Shown here piece after piece: positions 4,382 through 59,554 of a stretch of DNA of 64,000 nucleotides. The notes under the pieces were generated by a model that saw nothing but the letters and a program-made list of their open reading frames with translations, had not been told where the DNA came from and did no database searches. A program made the translations under genes and the position numbers. Each line of letters opens with the position of its first letter. Positions within the stretch are counted from its first letter, which is position 1. The stretch is from an uncultured bacterium (GTDB lineage Bacteria > Patescibacteriota > Gracilibacteria > Absconditabacterales > Absconditicoccaceae), in NCBI GenBank assembly GCA_903904875.1, contig CAIVEC010000011.1:1-64000 (forward strand), written 5' to 3'.

Positions 4382-4392
4382 AAATCTCACAT

Positions 4393-4518
4393 AATTGAGA
4401 CGCAATAAAAACTTGAATGTAATGAATGTTTTTATGACGTCGAAATTATACCGATGATTTTAGAAGTTTTGAATTCGAGCGTAGAGAAGAATTTAAATCT
4501 TTCTAAAACAATCGGTAT
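4393..4518 (+). repeat. GA-loop structured element, copy A (hairpins H1+H2)
   Basis: H1: AATT-GA-GACG-CA-ATAAAAAC ... GTTTTTAT-GA-CGTC-GA-AATT; H2: ATACCGAT-GA-TTTTAGAA ... TTCTAAAA-CA-ATCGGTAT. Confidence 0.8.
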
Positions 4519-4538: not shown

Positions 4539-5147
4539 ATGAACATCCGACCGACAATCTTAGTATTCAACTCCGGCTCAGGAAGCGGTTTCCAGGAGCT
4601 GGTAGAAAACACCCGTACCGGTGTATTACGCGCAGATATCATAGGTCTAGTGACCAATAACAAAAATCACGAGTGCGTGAAACGCGCAGAAGAGCTTAAT
4701 ATCAAATCTTGTGTCATGACCGACCTAGGAGTAGAAGACTACAAAGATCTGCTGGAAGGATATAAACCAGATTTCGTCGCATTATCCGGCTGGCTCAAGA
4801 AAGTGCCGATGGGCGTATTCGATCCACAGAGGACGATCAATATCCATCCGGGGCCATTGCCCGAATTCGGCGGTCCAGGAATGTATGGTCATCATGTGCA
4901 TGACGCTGTGATGAAAGCCTTCCATGCACGCAGGATAGTAAGCACCCAAGTATGCATGCACTACGTGATAGACGAATACGATCAAGGTCGAGTATTCTTC
5001 AGATATCCTGTACGAATACGAACTAATGATACCAGCTGTACCTTAGCTGGTCGCGTGAATAAAATCGAACATGGTTGGCAATCGTACATCACCAATCTCG
5101 TCGTCCACGGAGAAATCCGTTGGGACGGAAAAATCCAGAAAGCTTAG
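4539..5147 (+). CDS. purN: phosphoribosylglycinamide formyltransferase
   Basis: 'LVFNSGSGSGFQEL', 'LSGWLKKVP', 'NIHPGPLPEFGGPGMYGHHVHDAV'; no in-frame TGA. Confidence 0.93.
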   Translation: MNIRPTILVFNSGSGSGFQELVENTRTGVLRADIIGLVTNNKNHECVKRAEELNIKSCVMTDLGVEDYKDLLEGYKPDFVALSGWLKKVPMGVFDPQRTINIHPGPLPEFGGPGMYGHHVHDAVMKAFHARRIVSTQVCMHYVIDEYDQGRVFFRYPVRIRTNDTSCTLAGRVNKIEHGWQSYITNLVVHGEIRWDGKIQKA

Positions 5148-16641: not shown

Positions 16642-16821
16642 ATATATTCTTGAAACAGAATATATACATCCTCCTTCAAAAAGGTTTATTATTTTTGATT
16701 GAAGGATGTATAGTTGACCAAACAATAATTCTTTGTTGCACTTCACAATTATTTGTTGGTCAACTATAATTTCGACGTCATAAAAACGCTCAATTCTTCG
16801 TGTTTTTATTGCGTCTCAAAT
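16642..16821 (-). repeat. GA-loop structured element, copy B (H1+H2+H3 plus a small extra hairpin)
   Basis: H1 16768-16821, H2 16710-16767 (ATAGTTGACCAA/TTGGTCAACTAT), H3 16665-16710 (TACATCC/GGATGTA). Confidence 0.8.
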
Positions 16822-16822
16822 A

Positions 16823-16853
16823 TAAAAAAAAGGCGGCGATTATAATCGCCGCC
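16823..16853 (-). terminator. intrinsic terminator of the secreted-protein gene
   Basis: GGCGGCGATTATAATCGCCGCC followed by T-tract on the minus strand. Confidence 0.85.
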
Positions 16854-16871: not shown

Positions 16872-18956
16872 TTACTGGGTTTTGATGAAGTACTTGCCGA
16901 CAGATAAGCCATCAGCGTTCATAAATCCAATAACATATGTGCCAGGTGCGTAGCCGGAAACATCAAGCTGCATATTTTCAGTAACGGTTTCTGTAGCAAA
17001 TACTACTTCGCCGAGTACATTCATAATGCGAATACTCTTGATTTCCTTCGTGTCGATACCTGCAATATTGAGAAGACTTGCAGCTGGGTTAGGATAGATG
17101 GTAGCTGCATTTACAGCTGCACTTACTTCTTCAACTCCAGTTGTTCCTACGGTTATATACTGTATCTGACTTGCTGAACATCCTGTGATAGGATGAACAT
17201 AGGTGTAAGTCAACATCCATGTACCTGCTCCAGCAGCAGCCGGATCAAATAAGCTTCCAACCATTCCTGGACCACTGAATGTTCCACCTATAGGACTAAC
17301 ATTGCCCATAAGGTCAAACGGAGGGGTATCTGTATACACAGCACCCACGATTGATGAGAACGTTACTGTCGGTATAGGATTGATGGTTAATAAATCAGTA
17401 GCGAATGCACTACATCCGAAACCGTCTGTATAGGTATAGGTAACGGTATAGGTTCCAGGACCACTTACCGGTGGGTATACGGTGTTGCCACCAAATACAC
17501 AGCTTCCGCTGTAGATTCCACCAGCAGGCAAACCTCCACTTATGACAGCTGAATTCACATCAGTACAATAATTGTCTTGTGCCAATGTTAAGCTGACTGT
17601 CGGTAAAGCGTGTACAGTGACGGTGAAATCGTCGGTTGCTGTACAGCCGTTTGAACCAGTTGCAGTGACAATATAGGTAGTAGTTGCTGTCGGGTTGACC
17701 GTGACCGTTTGGGTTATCATACCGCCCGTCCAAACAAATGACACGCCAGTACCATTTGATGTTAAGTCGGTACTTGCACCTGCGCAGATATCTGAATAAG
17801 TAGCGGTTATGGTATTCGTCGGAGCGATATTGACTATGATAGGCATAATATATGCTTGCCCTGAACCACAGCTATTTACTCCGATCACCGAAATATCACC
17901 ACTAGTACCATTGATAAACACGGTAATCATTGTTGTTCCCTGACCGGAAATGACATTAGCTCCAGCAGGTACTGACCATAGATATGAGGTAGCATTCAGT
18001 AACGGATTAGTAGAAAACGAAACGGTGGATCCCTGGCAAATTGTAGTCGGTCCAGTGATTATCGTTGCGTCTCCTGGTAAAGGATCCATAGCAACTACTG
18101 CGGAACCGTTCATCACGTTGGTACATGATGTTGAGTTGTCCGTAGCTACTATAGAATAAACACCAGCAACAGCCTGATTAGTCCATGCTAAACCAATCCC
18201 AGTTCCTCCAACCGGGACTCCAGAGTTGACGCCGTTCAGCAGAAGCTGATAATTGACGCCGGTCTGAGAACCGTTCAGATTGATGGTTACGCCTGTGCCT
18301 CCTTCACAAAATGTAGGAGAACTTGCACTGACCGTAAATGCTTGAGGCAATGGGTTGACCATCACCATGGTGTCATGGTCATTACTACATCCGAAACCGT
18401 TCGTTGCCACGACCGTAAACATGCCGGTCTGATTCGCAACATACTGGTTAAGGTTTGCACCTGGGATAATAGTTCCGTTCATCTTCCACTGATAGGTACA
18501 GCCGCCACCCGCGTTAGCAGTAAGCGTAACTGTTCCCGATCCGCAGAAAATAGTAGGACCAGATGTAGTAATAGTTACATTAGGAATCGCATTGACTTGG
18601 ATAGTTGCGCTGTTACTCATTTGAATTGAGCATCCCGTTGAAGGATTAGTAGCGATAACAGTATACACCCCGCCCATTGTCTGTGTCCCGAAATTAAGGA
18701 CAGTGCCATTACCGGGGAAGGGTAAACCAAGATTTAAACCATTACAAACGAGCTGATAATTAACGCCAACTTCCGAATTGGAAAGCGATACCGTAACACC
18801 AGCCTGTCCAGCACAGTAAGATCCGCCACCCATCACGCTATACAGCGTTGGCGATGGGTTGATCGTGATTTGTACTCCCGTTTGAGAGAGCCCCACTGTG
18901 GTTGCCGCAATACATACGGCAACACACAACAGGAATTTTTTGAAGAGTGTCTTCAT
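16872..18956 (-). CDS. secreted PKD/Ig-like repeat protein with T9SS type A-like C-terminal sorting domain (694 aa)
   Basis: Signal peptide 'MKTLFKKFLLCVAVCIAATTVGLSQ'; C-term 'ATIYPNPAASLLNIAGI...IRIMNVLGEVVF...LDVSGYAPGTYVIGFMNADGLSVGKYFIKTQ'; no TGA. Confidence 0.88.
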   Translation of the reverse strand: MKTLFKKFLLCVAVCIAATTVGLSQTGVQITINPSPTLYSVMGGGSYCAGQAGVTVSLSNSEVGVNYQLVCNGLNLGLPFPGNGTVLNFGTQTMGGVYTVIATNPSTGCSIQMSNSATIQVNAIPNVTITTSGPTIFCGSGTVTLTANAGGGCTYQWKMNGTIIPGANLNQYVANQTGMFTVVATNGFGCSNDHDTMVMVNPLPQAFTVSASSPTFCEGGTGVTINLNGSQTGVNYQLLLNGVNSGVPVGGTGIGLAWTNQAVAGVYSIVATDNSTSCTNVMNGSAVVAMDPLPGDATIITGPTTICQGSTVSFSTNPLLNATSYLWSVPAGANVISGQGTTMITVFINGTSGDISVIGVNSCGSGQAYIMPIIVNIAPTNTITATYSDICAGASTDLTSNGTGVSFVWTGGMITQTVTVNPTATTTYIVTATGSNGCTATDDFTVTVHALPTVSLTLAQDNYCTDVNSAVISGGLPAGGIYSGSCVFGGNTVYPPVSGPGTYTVTYTYTDGFGCSAFATDLLTINPIPTVTFSSIVGAVYTDTPPFDLMGNVSPIGGTFSGPGMVGSLFDPAAAGAGTWMLTYTYVHPITGCSASQIQYITVGTTGVEEVSAAVNAATIYPNPAASLLNIAGIDTKEIKSIRIMNVLGEVVFATETVTENMQLDVSGYAPGTYVIGFMNADGLSVGKYFIKTQ

Positions 18957-18993
18957 TTTATTTTAACTGTTTTTTTTAATTTTTCGTTGATAA

Positions 18994-20481
18994 TTACGGT
19001 AAGGCCGGGCTACTGCCACAACCTGATCCACTGGTGACAATTACATGATACCAGATGCCAGCCGTCAATGAAGGTGACTGATAGGTATTTGCATTTGCGC
19101 CGCCAATTGGTGTCCATGGAGCAAAACCAGTCGGACTGTTTTCCCATTGATACGTGTACGTTCCATCACCACCCGAAGGTAAAGTGATAAAACCTAACTG
19201 TGTCGGTGTGCTTCCATAACAGATTGCCTGAGCAACTCCGATTACACCAGGATTGAAAATCGGATAAACTGTGATAGTAATACTATTAGAATACAATGCA
19301 GCACATGCATTAATTGCTTGCCTGCGGAACATGGTAGTCACTGTTAAAGCGGCAGGGTCGTCGTTTTGAAGTGTTGCACCTGGGATAATAGTCCAAGTGG
19401 TTCCACCGTTAATAGAGGATTCCCACTGATACGTAGTACCGGGAGCACCGCCAGTAGCGGCTGTTCCTGTAAATGAACCGAAATCAACACCATTGCAGAT
19501 AGTTGTGCCACCTACAGCCGTAATTGTTCCTGCAGCAAATACATTGTACACTACGAGAGTAATAACATTGGAATATACAACCCCACAAGTATTGGTATAC
19601 CTAAGGCGATAATACATGGTCTGGGTAAGATTACCCAAAACAAGAGTTAATGCTGTTTGACCAATCATATCAGTATAGGTTATTCCGTCGGTTGAGCTTT
19701 CCCATTGCAGAGTAGTACCAGGAGCACCGCCAGTTGGGGCAGTACTTGTCAAGATTCCACCATTGCTTCCGTTACAGATATTAGTGTTTCCCCCAGTTGC
19801 TGTTCCTGCAGCGAATACATTATATACGGTAATAGTTGTTACGTTCCCGTATATCGTTCCGCATGTGGGATTGATAAATGCTAAGCGAAAACCGCTGGTC
19901 TGGGTAAGTACACCAACATTGTGAATAAGAGTAGTTTCACCAAATATATCGTTCCAAGTGATACCGCCGTCGATGGTCAATTGCCACTGGTAGGTTGTAC
20001 CAGGAGCACCGCCAGTTGAAGCTGTACTCGTTAAAATTCCACCATTGCCGCCATTACAGAGATTATTATTTCCACCGGTTGTTACACCAGCAATAAACTG
20101 TCCGTATACGGGGATTGAGATAATATTGGTTGTTACAACCCCGCAAAGATCAGTATCATTACGACGGAAGTCTGTACTTACTATTAAGGTGCCAGGATCA
20201 TAATTAATCCCGGTAGCTCCAAGAATATTGGTCCAGGTCACACCCCCATTTGTAGATTTCTGCCACTGATAGGTATATGTGCCTTGGCCCCCTGTAGGAG
20301 CAGTTCCGGTAATAAGTCCAGTAGCGGTATTATAACACAGCGGAGGGATTACTCCGACAGAGAGGTTTCCAGCAAAAAGCTGCGGGTATACGGTAATATG
20401 TACACCGGTTTGTGAATAAGTTGACTGCGTTGCGATCAGCATTCCTGCGATCAAACAACAAAATACAAATAATTTTTTCAT
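18994..20481 (-). CDS. secreted Bacteroidota-like repeat protein (495 aa)
   Basis: Signal peptide; repeats 'GGAPGTTYQWESS.NGGTTWT.I.GAT'; no TGA. Confidence 0.82.
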   Translation of the reverse strand: MKKLFVFCCLIAGMLIATQSTYSQTGVHITVYPQLFAGNLSVGVIPPLCYNTATGLITGTAPTGGQGTYTYQWQKSTNGGVTWTNILGATGINYDPGTLIVSTDFRRNDTDLCGVVTTNIISIPVYGQFIAGVTTGGNNNLCNGGNGGILTSTASTGGAPGTTYQWQLTIDGGITWNDIFGETTLIHNVGVLTQTSGFRLAFINPTCGTIYGNVTTITVYNVFAAGTATGGNTNICNGSNGGILTSTAPTGGAPGTTLQWESSTDGITYTDMIGQTALTLVLGNLTQTMYYRLRYTNTCGVVYSNVITLVVYNVFAAGTITAVGGTTICNGVDFGSFTGTAATGGAPGTTYQWESSINGGTTWTIIPGATLQNDDPAALTVTTMFRRQAINACAALYSNSITITVYPIFNPGVIGVAQAICYGSTPTQLGFITLPSGGDGTYTYQWENSPTGFAPWTPIGGANANTYQSPSLTAGIWYHVIVTSGSGCGSSPALP

Positions 20482-20512
20482 TGTACGTTTCTAAATTTCG
20501 TTAATTAATTAA

Positions 20513-21283
20513 TTAATTTGAATAATTGATACATGAATTTCCATCAGTCACTTGTACCCGATAATAGCCGGTAACACTGATACTGATAGTCTGATTGGTT
20601 TCACCGATGACATTGTTCCATGGAGCGTTCCCCGTAGGACTCATTTGCCATTGATAGCTGTAACCAGCGCCAGCTTGAGCAGTTAATACAATAGGCGTTC
20701 CCCAGCAAGTTGTTAATGGGCCAGCAGGAGTGACGTTTGCTACAGGCAACGGATTCACCGTCACTACTGTTGCAGCAGACATTCCAGAACAAGTACCTAC
20801 GGTAACATATGCCTGATAGGAACCTGTAGCCGAAGCTGAGTAATTTACATTAGTTGCACCCGGAATTACTGATCCATTCAAATACCACTGATACGTATCT
20901 GCTACCGATGAGGTAAGCAGAACACTGTTTCCAGCGCAGATATTGGTAGAGCCACCTGCGGTAATAGTTGGATTGGGTGCGGGTAGAACGGTGACAGTTT
21001 GATTAGCGTTAGCAAGTATACCACCCATGAAAGTTACAGTTACTGTGTATGTAGTTGTTGCAAGCGGAGAAACATTAATTGCTTGAGTGAGTCCTCCGTT
21101 TGACCATACATACCCGATAACGATACCACCAGTAGGATTTGCAGTAAGTGAAACATTTGTACCTTGACCTGCACAGATAGTGGCAGGAAATGGATTGGTT
21201 GTGATAGTTACGCTCTGAGCGCTAACCAGTTGAACTGCTAATACACTGACCAGCAGAACAACAAACTTAAAATACTTTTTCAT
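20513..21283 (-). CDS. secreted PKD/Ig-like protein (256 aa)
   Basis: Signal peptide; 'TICAGQGTNVSLTANPTGG...YVWSNGGLTQAINVSPLATTTYTVTVT'; no TGA. Confidence 0.82.
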   Translation of the reverse strand: MKKYFKFVVLLVSVLAVQLVSAQSVTITTNPFPATICAGQGTNVSLTANPTGGIVIGYVWSNGGLTQAINVSPLATTTYTVTVTFMGGILANANQTVTVLPAPNPTITAGGSTNICAGNSVLLTSSVADTYQWYLNGSVIPGATNVNYSASATGSYQAYVTVGTCSGMSAATVVTVNPLPVANVTPAGPLTTCWGTPIVLTAQAGAGYSYQWQMSPTGNAPWNNVIGETNQTISISVTGYYRVQVTDGNSCINYSN

Positions 21284-21941
21284 TGTTTTTAGAGTTTAAT
21301 TTTTAATTTTTTTATTTGTTACAAAGTTGATTGGAGAATTTTTTTTGGTCATTGTTTTGATGCGCGACCGGGTAAAATTCAAAAAAAATCCAGCGCTGGC
21401 TAACAGCACGAATCAATCTGAAGTCCAAACAAGCTCCCCCATATAAATCTTTCTGTGATTTAATAAAAGGATTCTATGTCTGATCTTCGAAATGTCTTCA
21501 TTACTGTTAACCAAAAAATTGAGAGTCATTTTTTACTCCTTTCTTAGTTAGTTTTTGGTTAATAATTTTGTTAATGAGCTTTTGAATTAGCTTTAAAGCT
21601 AGATTCAAAACTTCTACTGACGGTGTATAATATAGTCAGTGTAGAACTTATAAACATTTCCTAGTATTTGTCAAGTGAAATTGAAAGAAAAGAGCAAGAA
21701 AATACGATACGGGATACGCTATATTTTTTCGGCTTCTGAACTATATTTTGATTTGATTACTTGGCAATGATTTTGAATGAAAAAAGCTTTACATTTTTAT
21801 GGATGCAGAATTCAGAATTCAGAATGAAAAAAATGGAAAAAAAAACATAAAAAAAAAGATCAGAATAATTTTTTTTGAAAAAAGTGAACACCGAAGCGTC
21901 CACCCTTTTGCTATGTTAGAAGGTAAAATTATATAATAAAA

Positions 21942-50418: not shown

Positions 50419-50967
50419 ATGAAAAAGTTAATTAAGAATACAAAAAAGTTCAAAGAAGACGCAAAAGAATTTGGGAAAACCATCTTATCCGGTATGTTTG
50501 TTCTGGTAGTAATCTTTGGACTCCTTATTGGATTTGTCAAATGCATCCAGTGGCTAAACGAAAGAGGAAGCTGCCATCAAACCGCTCATCAGAAAATCAC
50601 TAAGTACGTATCTGCGGACGGTGGCTATTGTGTGACATTGGAAACGACAACTTACAAGTACGGAAATGGTGACGTAAACACAGAACGATCTCTCCGCTTC
50701 ATTCCAACCAAGACCAATACTTTCTTTGCCGATTCTACGGGACTTGAAGATATCACCTTCTGTGATGTGGAAAATGATGGTAAATGGGATAAAGTATTCC
50801 TCTGTGGATATCCGACAAGCATATATGGTGCAAATTCTATAGTGCTTGGGGATAATCCTGAAGATTGGAGCAGCTGGAAGTTTGAAACCTGTCCGGCAGA
50901 TAAAGACATGAAGCCTTTCGATGCATGTACCATACAACATGTTATGGAACTCATCAAACAGGTATAA
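50419..50967 (+). CDS. membrane-anchored protein of unknown function (182 aa), no TGA
   Basis: N-terminal TM segment; 'FCDVENDGKWDKVFLCGYPTSIYG'; A-rich leader and own terminator. Confidence 0.75.
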   Translation: MKKLIKNTKKFKEDAKEFGKTILSGMFVLVVIFGLLIGFVKCIQWLNERGSCHQTAHQKITKYVSADGGYCVTLETTTYKYGNGDVNTERSLRFIPTKTNTFFADSTGLEDITFCDVENDGKWDKVFLCGYPTSIYGANSIVLGDNPEDWSSWKFETCPADKDMKPFDACTIQHVMELIKQV

Positions 50968-50997: not shown

Positions 50998-51013
50998 ACC
51001 GCTCCCTTTTTTT
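50998..51013 (+). terminator. intrinsic terminator after the 50419 gene
   Basis: GGGACGG-TTTA-CCGCTCCC-T7 starting just before 50998, running directly into element copy D. Confidence 0.65.
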
Positions 51014-51080
51014 AATTGAGACCCAATGAAAACCTGAGGTATCGAAGTGTTTTCATGAGGTCGAAATTATCCCGAGGGAT
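51014..51080 (+). repeat. GA-loop structured element, copy D (H1 + short H2)
   Basis: AATT-GA-GACC-CA-ATGAAAAC ... GTTTTCAT-GA-GGTC-GA-AATT then ATCCCGAGGGAT; compensatory changes relative to copy A. Confidence 0.8.
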
Positions 51081-56713: not shown

Positions 56714-56734
56714 AAAATAGTCAAAATAATAAAT

Positions 56735-56806
56735 AAATGAGACGCCAAGAAAGTCTGATGTATGAAGATTTTCTAACGCCGAATTTATACCAACCAGTGG
56801 TATAAA
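56735..56806 (+). repeat. GA-loop structured element, degenerate copy E
   Basis: AAAT-GA-GACG-CC-AAGAAAGTC ... GATTTTCT-AA-CGCC-GA-ATTT then TTTATACCA/TGGTATAAA. Confidence 0.6.
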
Positions 56807-58633: not shown

Positions 58634-58777
58634 TATATATTATTCTTCAAAAATATGTTTTAGTATTTTTGATTGAAGAATATATGGTTGCCAAAATTAA
58701 TAAATATTCAATTGGCAAACCATAATTTCGACGTCACAAAAACTTTCATTGCTTCAAGTTTTTATTGCGTCTCAATT
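58634..58777 (-). repeat. GA-loop structured element, copy F (H1+H2+H3)
   Basis: Minus strand: AATT-GA-GACG-CA-ATAAAAAC ... GTTTTTGT-GA-CGTC-GA-AATT, then ATGGTTTGCCAA..TTTGGCAACCAT, then H3 TATTCTTCAATCAAAAATA..TTTTTGAAGAATA. Confidence 0.8.
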
Positions 58778-58806
58778 AAAAAAAGGTCGGCAAATACGCC
58801 GACCTT
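58778..58806 (-). terminator. intrinsic terminator of the 58826 gene
   Basis: AAGGTCGGCGTATTTGCCGACCTTTTTTT on the minus strand, running directly into copy F. Confidence 0.85.
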
Positions 58807-58825: not shown

Positions 58826-59554
58826 TTACTTGTTTACGGGAAGTTCAAATTCAATCTTCTTTTTTATTTCCCCATTTGAATGAACCTTGTCAAAGTAGAA
58901 CCTGAAGGGAAGATTTTCATAATAATCCCATCCTTTAAGATAATAGGTACATTTACATTCTTCGTGGTTAATGGTGAGTTGTTGATCTTCTCCTTTGAGA
59001 TACTTAAGTGCAATACCATCAGGTTCAAATACAATAGTTTCATCTTCAGTCGATTCATCGATTTCATTGGCAGCCCATTCATATTTTGCGATAATATTCT
59101 TGAGTTTTTCTTTAAATTCAGAACTCACAATAAACACACTATTAAGGGCAGCGATTATATCGTTGAAGTAAACATTCAATGCAAATTCCTTTGCTTTTTT
59201 GTAGAGTATATCACTTAGTTCATCATACTGATTCCGGAGTGATATGGTCATCAACGAAGCCAAAACCGTATAGAACAACAAGGAAAATGCAATTGTGAGT
59301 GCAACACCAAGAAGTGTTAGAAAAATGATCGCTATAACATCTCCGTAAATAAACTGTATGAGCCATTCCCAACGGAAGTTAAGGAAATCCATTCCGAGGG
59401 TGAGATAGAAAACCATACCGATACCAATGGTACCAAAAATGCAGGAAAAAAGTGATGCTACATTACTTTTCTTATTAATCTGAGAATTGATTTCAGCTAT
59501 GCGTTCGTTTATTGCCTTATTAGCATCACCGAACGATTTTTTGTAATTTTTCAT
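58826..59554 (-). CDS. membrane protein of unknown function (242 aa), no TGA
   Basis: Two to three TM segments; A-rich leader; own terminator. Confidence 0.78.
   Translation of the reverse strand: MKNYKKSFGDANKAINERIAEINSQINKKSNVASLFSCIFGTIGIGMVFYLTLGMDFLNFRWEWLIQFIYGDVIAIIFLTLLGVALTIAFSLLFYTVLASLMTISLRNQYDELSDILYKKAKEFALNVYFNDIIAALNSVFIVSSEFKEKLKNIIAKYEWAANEIDESTEDETIVFEPDGIALKYLKGEDQQLTINHEECKCTYYLKGWDYYENLPFRFYFDKVHSNGEIKKKIEFELPVNK

Follow-up and report, generated by a model that had tools for sequence, protein, structure and literature searches.

TGA-free genes for Bacteroidota-type secreted proteins in a code-25 SR1/Absconditabacteria genome: candidates for translation in a host

A TGA-free operon upstream of rpsL

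The window analyzed here, positions 1-64000 of contig C11 of genome G000, comes from a 966-kb metagenome-assembled genome (MAG; 49 contigs, 87% complete) that uses genetic code 25, in which TGA encodes glycine. Among the same-genus relatives of G000 is LacPavin_0818_WC45_MAG_33_22 (candidate division SR1 bacterium). Between code-25 surface proteins and the rpsL-rpsG region, at 16872-21283, lies an operon of three tandem minus-strand open reading frames (ORFs), which a preliminary description had taken for TGA-free genes recently acquired from Bacteroidota. The genomes compared below are mostly MAGs, and a simple ORF caller placed each gene start at the first ATG. The features of this region, with the evidence for each, are as follows.

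16872..18956, minus strand: gene 3 of the operon, predicted 694-aa secreted PKD/Ig-like protein with a type A sorting domain (ORF, profile search, same-site orthologs)
16893..17099, minus strand: type 9 secretion system (T9SS) type A C-terminal sorting domain, residues 620-688 of the 694-aa protein (TIGR04183, PF18962)
17850..18068, minus strand: PKD_6 domain, residues 297-369 of the 694-aa protein (PF19408, 71.1 bits)
18994..20481, minus strand: gene 2, predicted 495-aa secreted protein, TGA-free (orthologs TGA-free in G006, G008, and G002)
20513..21283, minus strand: gene 1, predicted 256-aa secreted Ig-like protein, TGA-free (orthologs TGA-free in G006, G008, and G002)
21284..21308, minus strand: A-rich leader of the 256-aa gene, Bacteroidota-type start context, no Shine-Dalgarno (SD) sequence (leader statistics)
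21413..21529, minus strand: small conserved ORF with SD GAAAGGAG in the operon 5' leader (sequence, sister alignment)
21647..21674, minus strand: sigma70-type promoter TTGACA-N16-TATAAG, ~365 nt upstream of the operon (alignment, kept in 4 genomes)
16824..16853, minus strand: intrinsic terminator GGCGGCGATTATAATCGCCGCC-T8, 3' of gene 3 (sequence)
16760..16830, minus strand: conserved hairpin element (model R1) directly 3' of the terminator (other copies near other TGA-free genes)

TGA is absent from all 1,445 codons of the three genes, and thus from all 185 glycine codons (88, 72, and 25 in the 694-, 495-, and 256-aa ORFs, respectively). The flanking code-25 surface proteins, in contrast, use TGA at 30 of 86, 37 of 118, and 20 of 82 glycines; given a TGA/Gly ratio of 0.25 in flanking genes, the chance of 185 glycines without TGA is ~1e-23. 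This contrast had been recognized in the preliminary description, and both the code-25 assignment and the readability of the operon genes in either code were borne out as well.

Profile searches agreed with the earlier assignment of a type A sorting domain to the C-terminus of the 694-aa protein (TIGR04183, 34 bits, cut-off 23; PF18962, 43.7 bits, cut-off 27). The same protein contains Ig_7 in addition to PKD_6, the Bacteroidota-type PKD/Ig architecture that had been expected. An N-terminal signal peptide was recognized by eye and with a crude rule, from a K-rich start, a hydrophobic core, and ends in ...GLSQ, SAQ, or YSQ. The 495-aa protein has SprB/Ig_7-like repeats that score below cut-off, and profile searches of it found no sorting domain.

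In the 5' region of the operon the promoter comes first and is followed by the SD-led small ORF. This ORF is 38 aa long if TGA stops it, and its sisters are 33-41 aa; the lengths match only when TGA is read as stop. A conserved structure immediately upstream of the operon was set aside because its covariation was weak. An Rfam scan of the window returned two tRNAs and nothing else.

Age of the operon, TGA avoidance, and expression signals

G006, G008, and G002 have all three genes at the corresponding position upstream of rpsL, and G007, G004, and G005 have the sorting-domain gene there. Because seven separate assemblies have the same site, a chimeric contig or misbinning was ruled out for the operon. 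Identity to the sister SR1 genomes spans 67-42%; for the 694-aa protein, relatives include those in G006 (67%, 977 bits), G008 (60%), G007 (51%), G002 (43%), and G004 (54%, partial). The best match in 297 Bacteroidota genomes, in contrast, is partial, with 94 bits and 37% identity. In the GTDB one-genome-per-species collection, scanned by short patterns only and with one 174-residue stretch of the 694-aa protein as query, the Bacteroidota matches covered short segments and did not exceed ~50% identity. We also compared the tree of the 694-aa family with that of the native proteins S12+S7+EF-P+L25. The inner nodes of the native tree are weak, and the two trees concur at a supported node, which places G005 outside the rest. 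The best matches thus come from SR1 genomes, at a shared chromosomal position, an outcome that the preliminary description had itself named as refuting its proposal. Recent transfer does not hold for the operon; judged from these comparisons, its genes are old and vertically kept.

We also compared glycine codons between orthologs. Among 1,209 aligned Gly-Gly positions in operon ortholog pairs, 436 had an identical GGN codon, 773 (64%) had different GGN codons, and none involved TGA, versus 1,019 of 2,914 (35%) in neighboring native genes. Seven more ortholog groups, which take in a second syntenic site (G000:C1 / G001:C5), other genera, and a cassette encoding PorP, also had no TGA, with different codons at 38-64% of identical residues. 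Since the absence of TGA survives saturated synonymous divergence, it reflects strong selection against TGA rather than recency.

Of 99 relatives, 35 gave TIGR04183 matches, and most of these belong to a single family. Sorting-domain genes were the basis on which the loci were chosen, and only the following count is independent of selection for TGA-free genes or signal peptides. For 51 matches from 27 genomes (sequences in hand, with standard-code contigs removed), 983 TGA codons were expected from the flanking genes and 48 were observed; for matches of at least 34 bits, 720 were expected and 10 observed, including 2 stop codons. Of the 48, 38 fall in three weak matches that lack a signal peptide, 8 in G017 and G024, and 2 are the stop codons. 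Avoidance of TGA is thus a family-wide trait of this gene class. A 1,140-aa gene of G040 shows it most clearly, with TGA at 0 of 76 glycines versus 262 of 316 in the flanking genes. Taken together, the TGA-free secreted genes of G040 have TGA at 0 of 211 glycines versus 4,330 of 6,422 (67%) in natives, and their codon usage is otherwise native (distance 0.04 to native, 0.19 to Bacteroidota). In G000 this distance is uninformative because the two values are alike (0.10 and 0.09).

The three weak, TGA-using, sorting-domain-like C-termini are L126 and L125 (G042:C15:20528-20689 and G042:C2:33468-33692) and L036 10493-11122 (G001); their leaders are T-rich and of native type. The contigs excluded as standard-code (G007:C44, G007:C55, and G095:C17) have almost no in-frame TGA and are probably contamination of the bins.

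We compared the leaders of 43 TGA-free genes, chosen by zero TGA and a crude signal-peptide rule, with those of 272 native genes. A was enriched in the TGA-free set at -6 (79% vs 36%, p=1e-7), at -13 (81% vs 28%, p=3e-11), and at -14 (72% vs 28%). In Flavobacterium johnsoniae, A at -3, -6, -12, and -13 are positive determinants of translation, and Bacteroidetes characteristically show A enrichment at -12/-13 (PMC6847099). The TGA-free leaders carry a Bacteroidota-type start context, with A at -3, -6, and -11 to -14. Of the earlier statement that the operon leaders are A-rich and lack an SD sequence, both parts are correct, but the second is not distinctive: native genes also lack SD sequences, so we discarded SD absence as evidence, and the real contrast is between A-rich and T-rich leaders. 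Ribosomal-protein leaders in these genomes are T-rich, of the native type. More generally, native SR1 leaders have a T-rich stretch from -13 to -24 that peaks at -21, which suggests an unusual start signal in this lineage; leaderless native mRNAs were considered, but the positions of -10 elements did not support them.

The promoters gave a different picture. A sigma70-type motif, TTGAC[AT]-N16-18-TAnnnT, precedes 15 of 41 TGA-free genes versus 0.4 in shuffles, and the -35 sub-motif TTGACTTT was found at 14 of 43 TGA-free genes versus 3 of 272 native genes. The Bacteroidota promoter TAnnTTTG was at background level upstream of the TGA-free genes (5 vs 5.5 in shuffles).

Some of these genes also end at TGA. 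In G014 and G008 a sorting-domain gene stops at a TGA that immediately precedes an intrinsic terminator, and its frame has no other stop ahead of the T-run; the PorP gene of G000 and that of G041 also end at TGA, which forms an ATGA overlap with the start of the following gene. Profile searches found prfB, the gene for release factor 2 (RF2), in 0 of 13 family genomes, with matches at the level of RF1 alone and positive controls; G054 was dropped because prfB lay on the same contig. Some members of the class use TGA as a stop codon in genomes without RF2.

T9SS cargo without detected T9SS machinery, and its possible display by a host

Profile searches with positive controls, from Bacteroidota for the first two, found SprA in 0 of 99 code-25 and related genomes, GldM in 0 of 20, and BamA in 0 of 13. 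Nevertheless, T9SS-associated genes extend beyond the operon. A TGA-free cassette in G000:C22, G033, and G041 encodes an SprB-repeat adhesin with a type B sorting domain, PorP/SprF, and a PorE-like protein. PorP/SprF scores 98-122 bits (cut-off 90.55; G033 121.9, G000 98.2, G041 107) and the adjoining CHU_C domain 36, 55.5, and 51 bits in G033, G000, and G041 (cut-off 27); the PorE-like protein scores below its family cut-off. The products of the class are likely adhesins (PKD, Ig, SprB, FG-GAP) and, in G001, a GH16 hydrolase with a homolog in G005. In their signal peptides, Ig/PKD/SprB repeats, sorting domains, and PorP/SprF and PorE-like partners they resemble Bacteroidota T9SS cargo (TIGR04183, TIGR04131, PF13585) and the SprB-SprF system. 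They differ in that the genome is a code-25 member of the candidate phyla radiation (CPR), the SprA, GldM, and BamA searches were negative, and the sequences group with SR1 copies.

The interpretation that we favor, with moderate confidence, is that these are 'host-code' genes of SR1/Absconditabacteria-type symbionts, which would be transcribed by the symbiont, selected for standard-code translation in a Bacteroidota host, and displayed by the host T9SS. The symbiont would transcribe them from sigma70 promoters, and mRNA (less likely DNA) would pass into the cytoplasm of the attached host. Host ribosomes would translate the message by the standard code, and the host Sec and T9SS pathways would export the adhesin-like Ig/PKD/SprB proteins to its surface. 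Docking, holding, or aggregation are possible functions there, display for docking or aggregation being the simplest. Given the promoter evidence, RNA transfer or cytoplasmic continuity is likelier than DNA transfer. A wider proposal, in which a symbiont regulon written in the genetic code of the host sends its messages to host ribosomes and T9SS and may also include metabolic genes, is tentative and, in our view, somewhat doubtful. In mats, the occurrence of Absconditabacteria is correlated with that of Bacteroidetes (PMC8406219), which fits a Bacteroidota host; both cultivated Absconditabacteria are predators (PMC11452946).

Several points weigh against translation in a host. We know of no bacterial route of this kind for the delivery of mRNA or DNA, and matches resembling type 4 secretion system (T4SS) coupling proteins, present in 6 of 13 genomes, are weak. 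Host translation and the delivery step are both inferred. Well-scoring sorting-domain genes of G017 and G024 contain inner TGA codons, and among the TGA-free genes without a sorting domain, some probably came by ordinary transfer or belong to phages. Symbiont-type promoters argue against one form of the proposal, simple DNA transfer followed by host transcription. In addition, A at -3 and -6 also helps translation in E. coli (PMC6847099), and therefore only the -11 to -14 part of the start context is Bacteroidota-specific.

Recent horizontal transfer from Bacteroidota, with too little time to gain TGA, would account for the domain architecture, the sorting domain, and the Bacteroidota-like leaders and signal peptides, and a fresh transfer from a standard-code genome would also be TGA-free. 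Moreover, some other TGA-free genes of these genomes, without nearby relatives, do resemble plain transfers or phage genes. However, sister genomes share the site, synonymous change is saturated with TGA still absent, the nearest Bacteroidota sequences are much farther away than those of sister SR1, in several genomes the codon usage is ameliorated except for TGA, and the promoters are symbiont-type. We rejected recent transfer for the operon on synteny, distance from Bacteroidota, and the Gly-codon substitution test, and consider it very unlikely. Repeated travel of phages or mobile elements between Bacteroidota and SR1 could instead maintain readability in both codes. This has been proposed for code-11-compatible SR1/Gracilibacteria phages, whose avoidance of in-frame TGA leaves their genes readable by standard-code ribosomes and which are predicted to infect hosts of both kinds (PMC10746230); the repeated hairpin beside many TGA-free genes would also fit such travel. 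Here, in contrast, one class of symbiont chromosomal genes is TGA-free at a site fixed across the genus, the tree looks vertical, the promoters are not Bacteroidota-type, and no close copies were found in the 297 Bacteroidota genomes or in the pattern-based scan of the one-genome-per-species collection. We regard this explanation as quite unlikely.

The genes might also be translated by the symbiont itself, with TGA shunned through a bias linked to high expression, export, or a growth phase low in tRNA-Gly(UCA), and with the sorting domain repurposed for another kind of anchoring. The sigma70 promoters, often with TTGACTTT, imply that strong symbiont transcription is possible, and A-rich leaders favor initiation in many bacteria (PMC6847099). 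However, ribosomal and other translation proteins of these genomes use TGA freely (in G022, for example, S12 5/11, S7 4/8, EF-P-like 8/10, L25 9/14), which together with the T-rich ribosomal-protein leaders ruled out codon bias due to expression level. Other large secreted proteins contain 20-54 TGA codons, and neither TGA stops without RF2 nor the negative searches for BamA, SprA, and GldM suit self-translation, which we find rather improbable. Delivery of the cassette as DNA and its transcription in the host, although it would share much with the proposal that we favor, is also unlikely. Agrobacterium T-DNA is kept in one organism and expressed in another. The present genes would likewise be held by one organism and built for expression in a second, and they lie in defined cassettes with hairpins on one or both sides (G000:C22, the window operon); the T4SS-like matches, weak as they are, would suit this route. 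The transfer would differ from that of T-DNA in passing from bacterium to bacterium, across a code boundary, and with donor-type promoters; the sigma70 motifs and the shuffle-level count of TAnnTTTG stand against transcription in the host.

Among open-licence papers we found none that treats T9SS in CPR or Gracilibacteria or describes TGA-free cellular genes, and no precedent in a cellular genome; the nearest idea is that of TGA-free phages that may use both hosts (PMC10746230). If host translation is correct, one bacterium would be reprogramming another by a new means, in the first takeover between bacteria at the level of nucleic acid across a code boundary. The code difference would then label, gene by gene, the proteins of uncultured CPR symbionts that are made in the host, providing both a host prediction (Bacteroidota) and a list of candidate host-manipulating proteins. 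Codon avoidance combined with leader type is a test applicable to every recoded symbiont.

The R1 hairpin and other TGA-free genes

The element 3' of the operon terminator is a 72-nt hairpin, TTGAGACGCAATAAAAAC...GTTTTTATGACGTCGAAATTATA, with tandem G-A mismatches and compensatory changes in 9 of 20 pairs, often followed by more variable hairpins. Among the loci searched it was confined to this genus, and none was found in 1 Mb of Bacteroidota loci. Its copies include:

Window: 4384-4455, 16760-16830, 51005-51076, 56726-56794, and 58716-58786
Elsewhere: L028 7037-7111; L175 1374-1444, 1628-1700, and 8032-8103; L138, L179, L029, L043, and L180

A TGA-free gene lies beside 9 of 15 copies (7 of the 8 best), against a rough background of 0.29.

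In G040, where TGA makes up about 60% of glycine codons, L152 353-6382, L153 15326-18609, L154 13726-18001, and L156 5716-10397 are TGA-free clusters with cytoplasmic genes (ABC ATPase, OmpA, aldehyde dehydrogenase, SLOG/LSDAT, and adenylosuccinate synthetase); they could be host-code genes, phage genes, or recent transfers. A single OmpA gene tested from these clusters had no full-length relatives. L175 18430-19062 and L179 16162-16866 are TGA-free, non-secreted homologs in G000 and G001 that are 38% identical; a Pfam search with the L175 protein found no family.

Lone nucleotide-synthesis genes can be TGA-free as well, with A-rich leaders in those checked. A lone PurN-like formyltransferase gene at 4539-5147 (plus strand) has TGA at 0 of 19 glycines, an A-rich leader, and the hairpin just upstream; a purC-purE fusion elsewhere in the G000 genome (L026 17780-19237) and pyrE/pyrF in G005 (L182 537-2176) are likewise TGA-free. 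Within the window, two genes with no assigned function, 50419-50967 (plus strand, 0 of 14 glycines) and 58826-59554 (minus strand, 0 of 11), are TGA-free with A-rich leaders, and each has a hairpin ~40 nt downstream.

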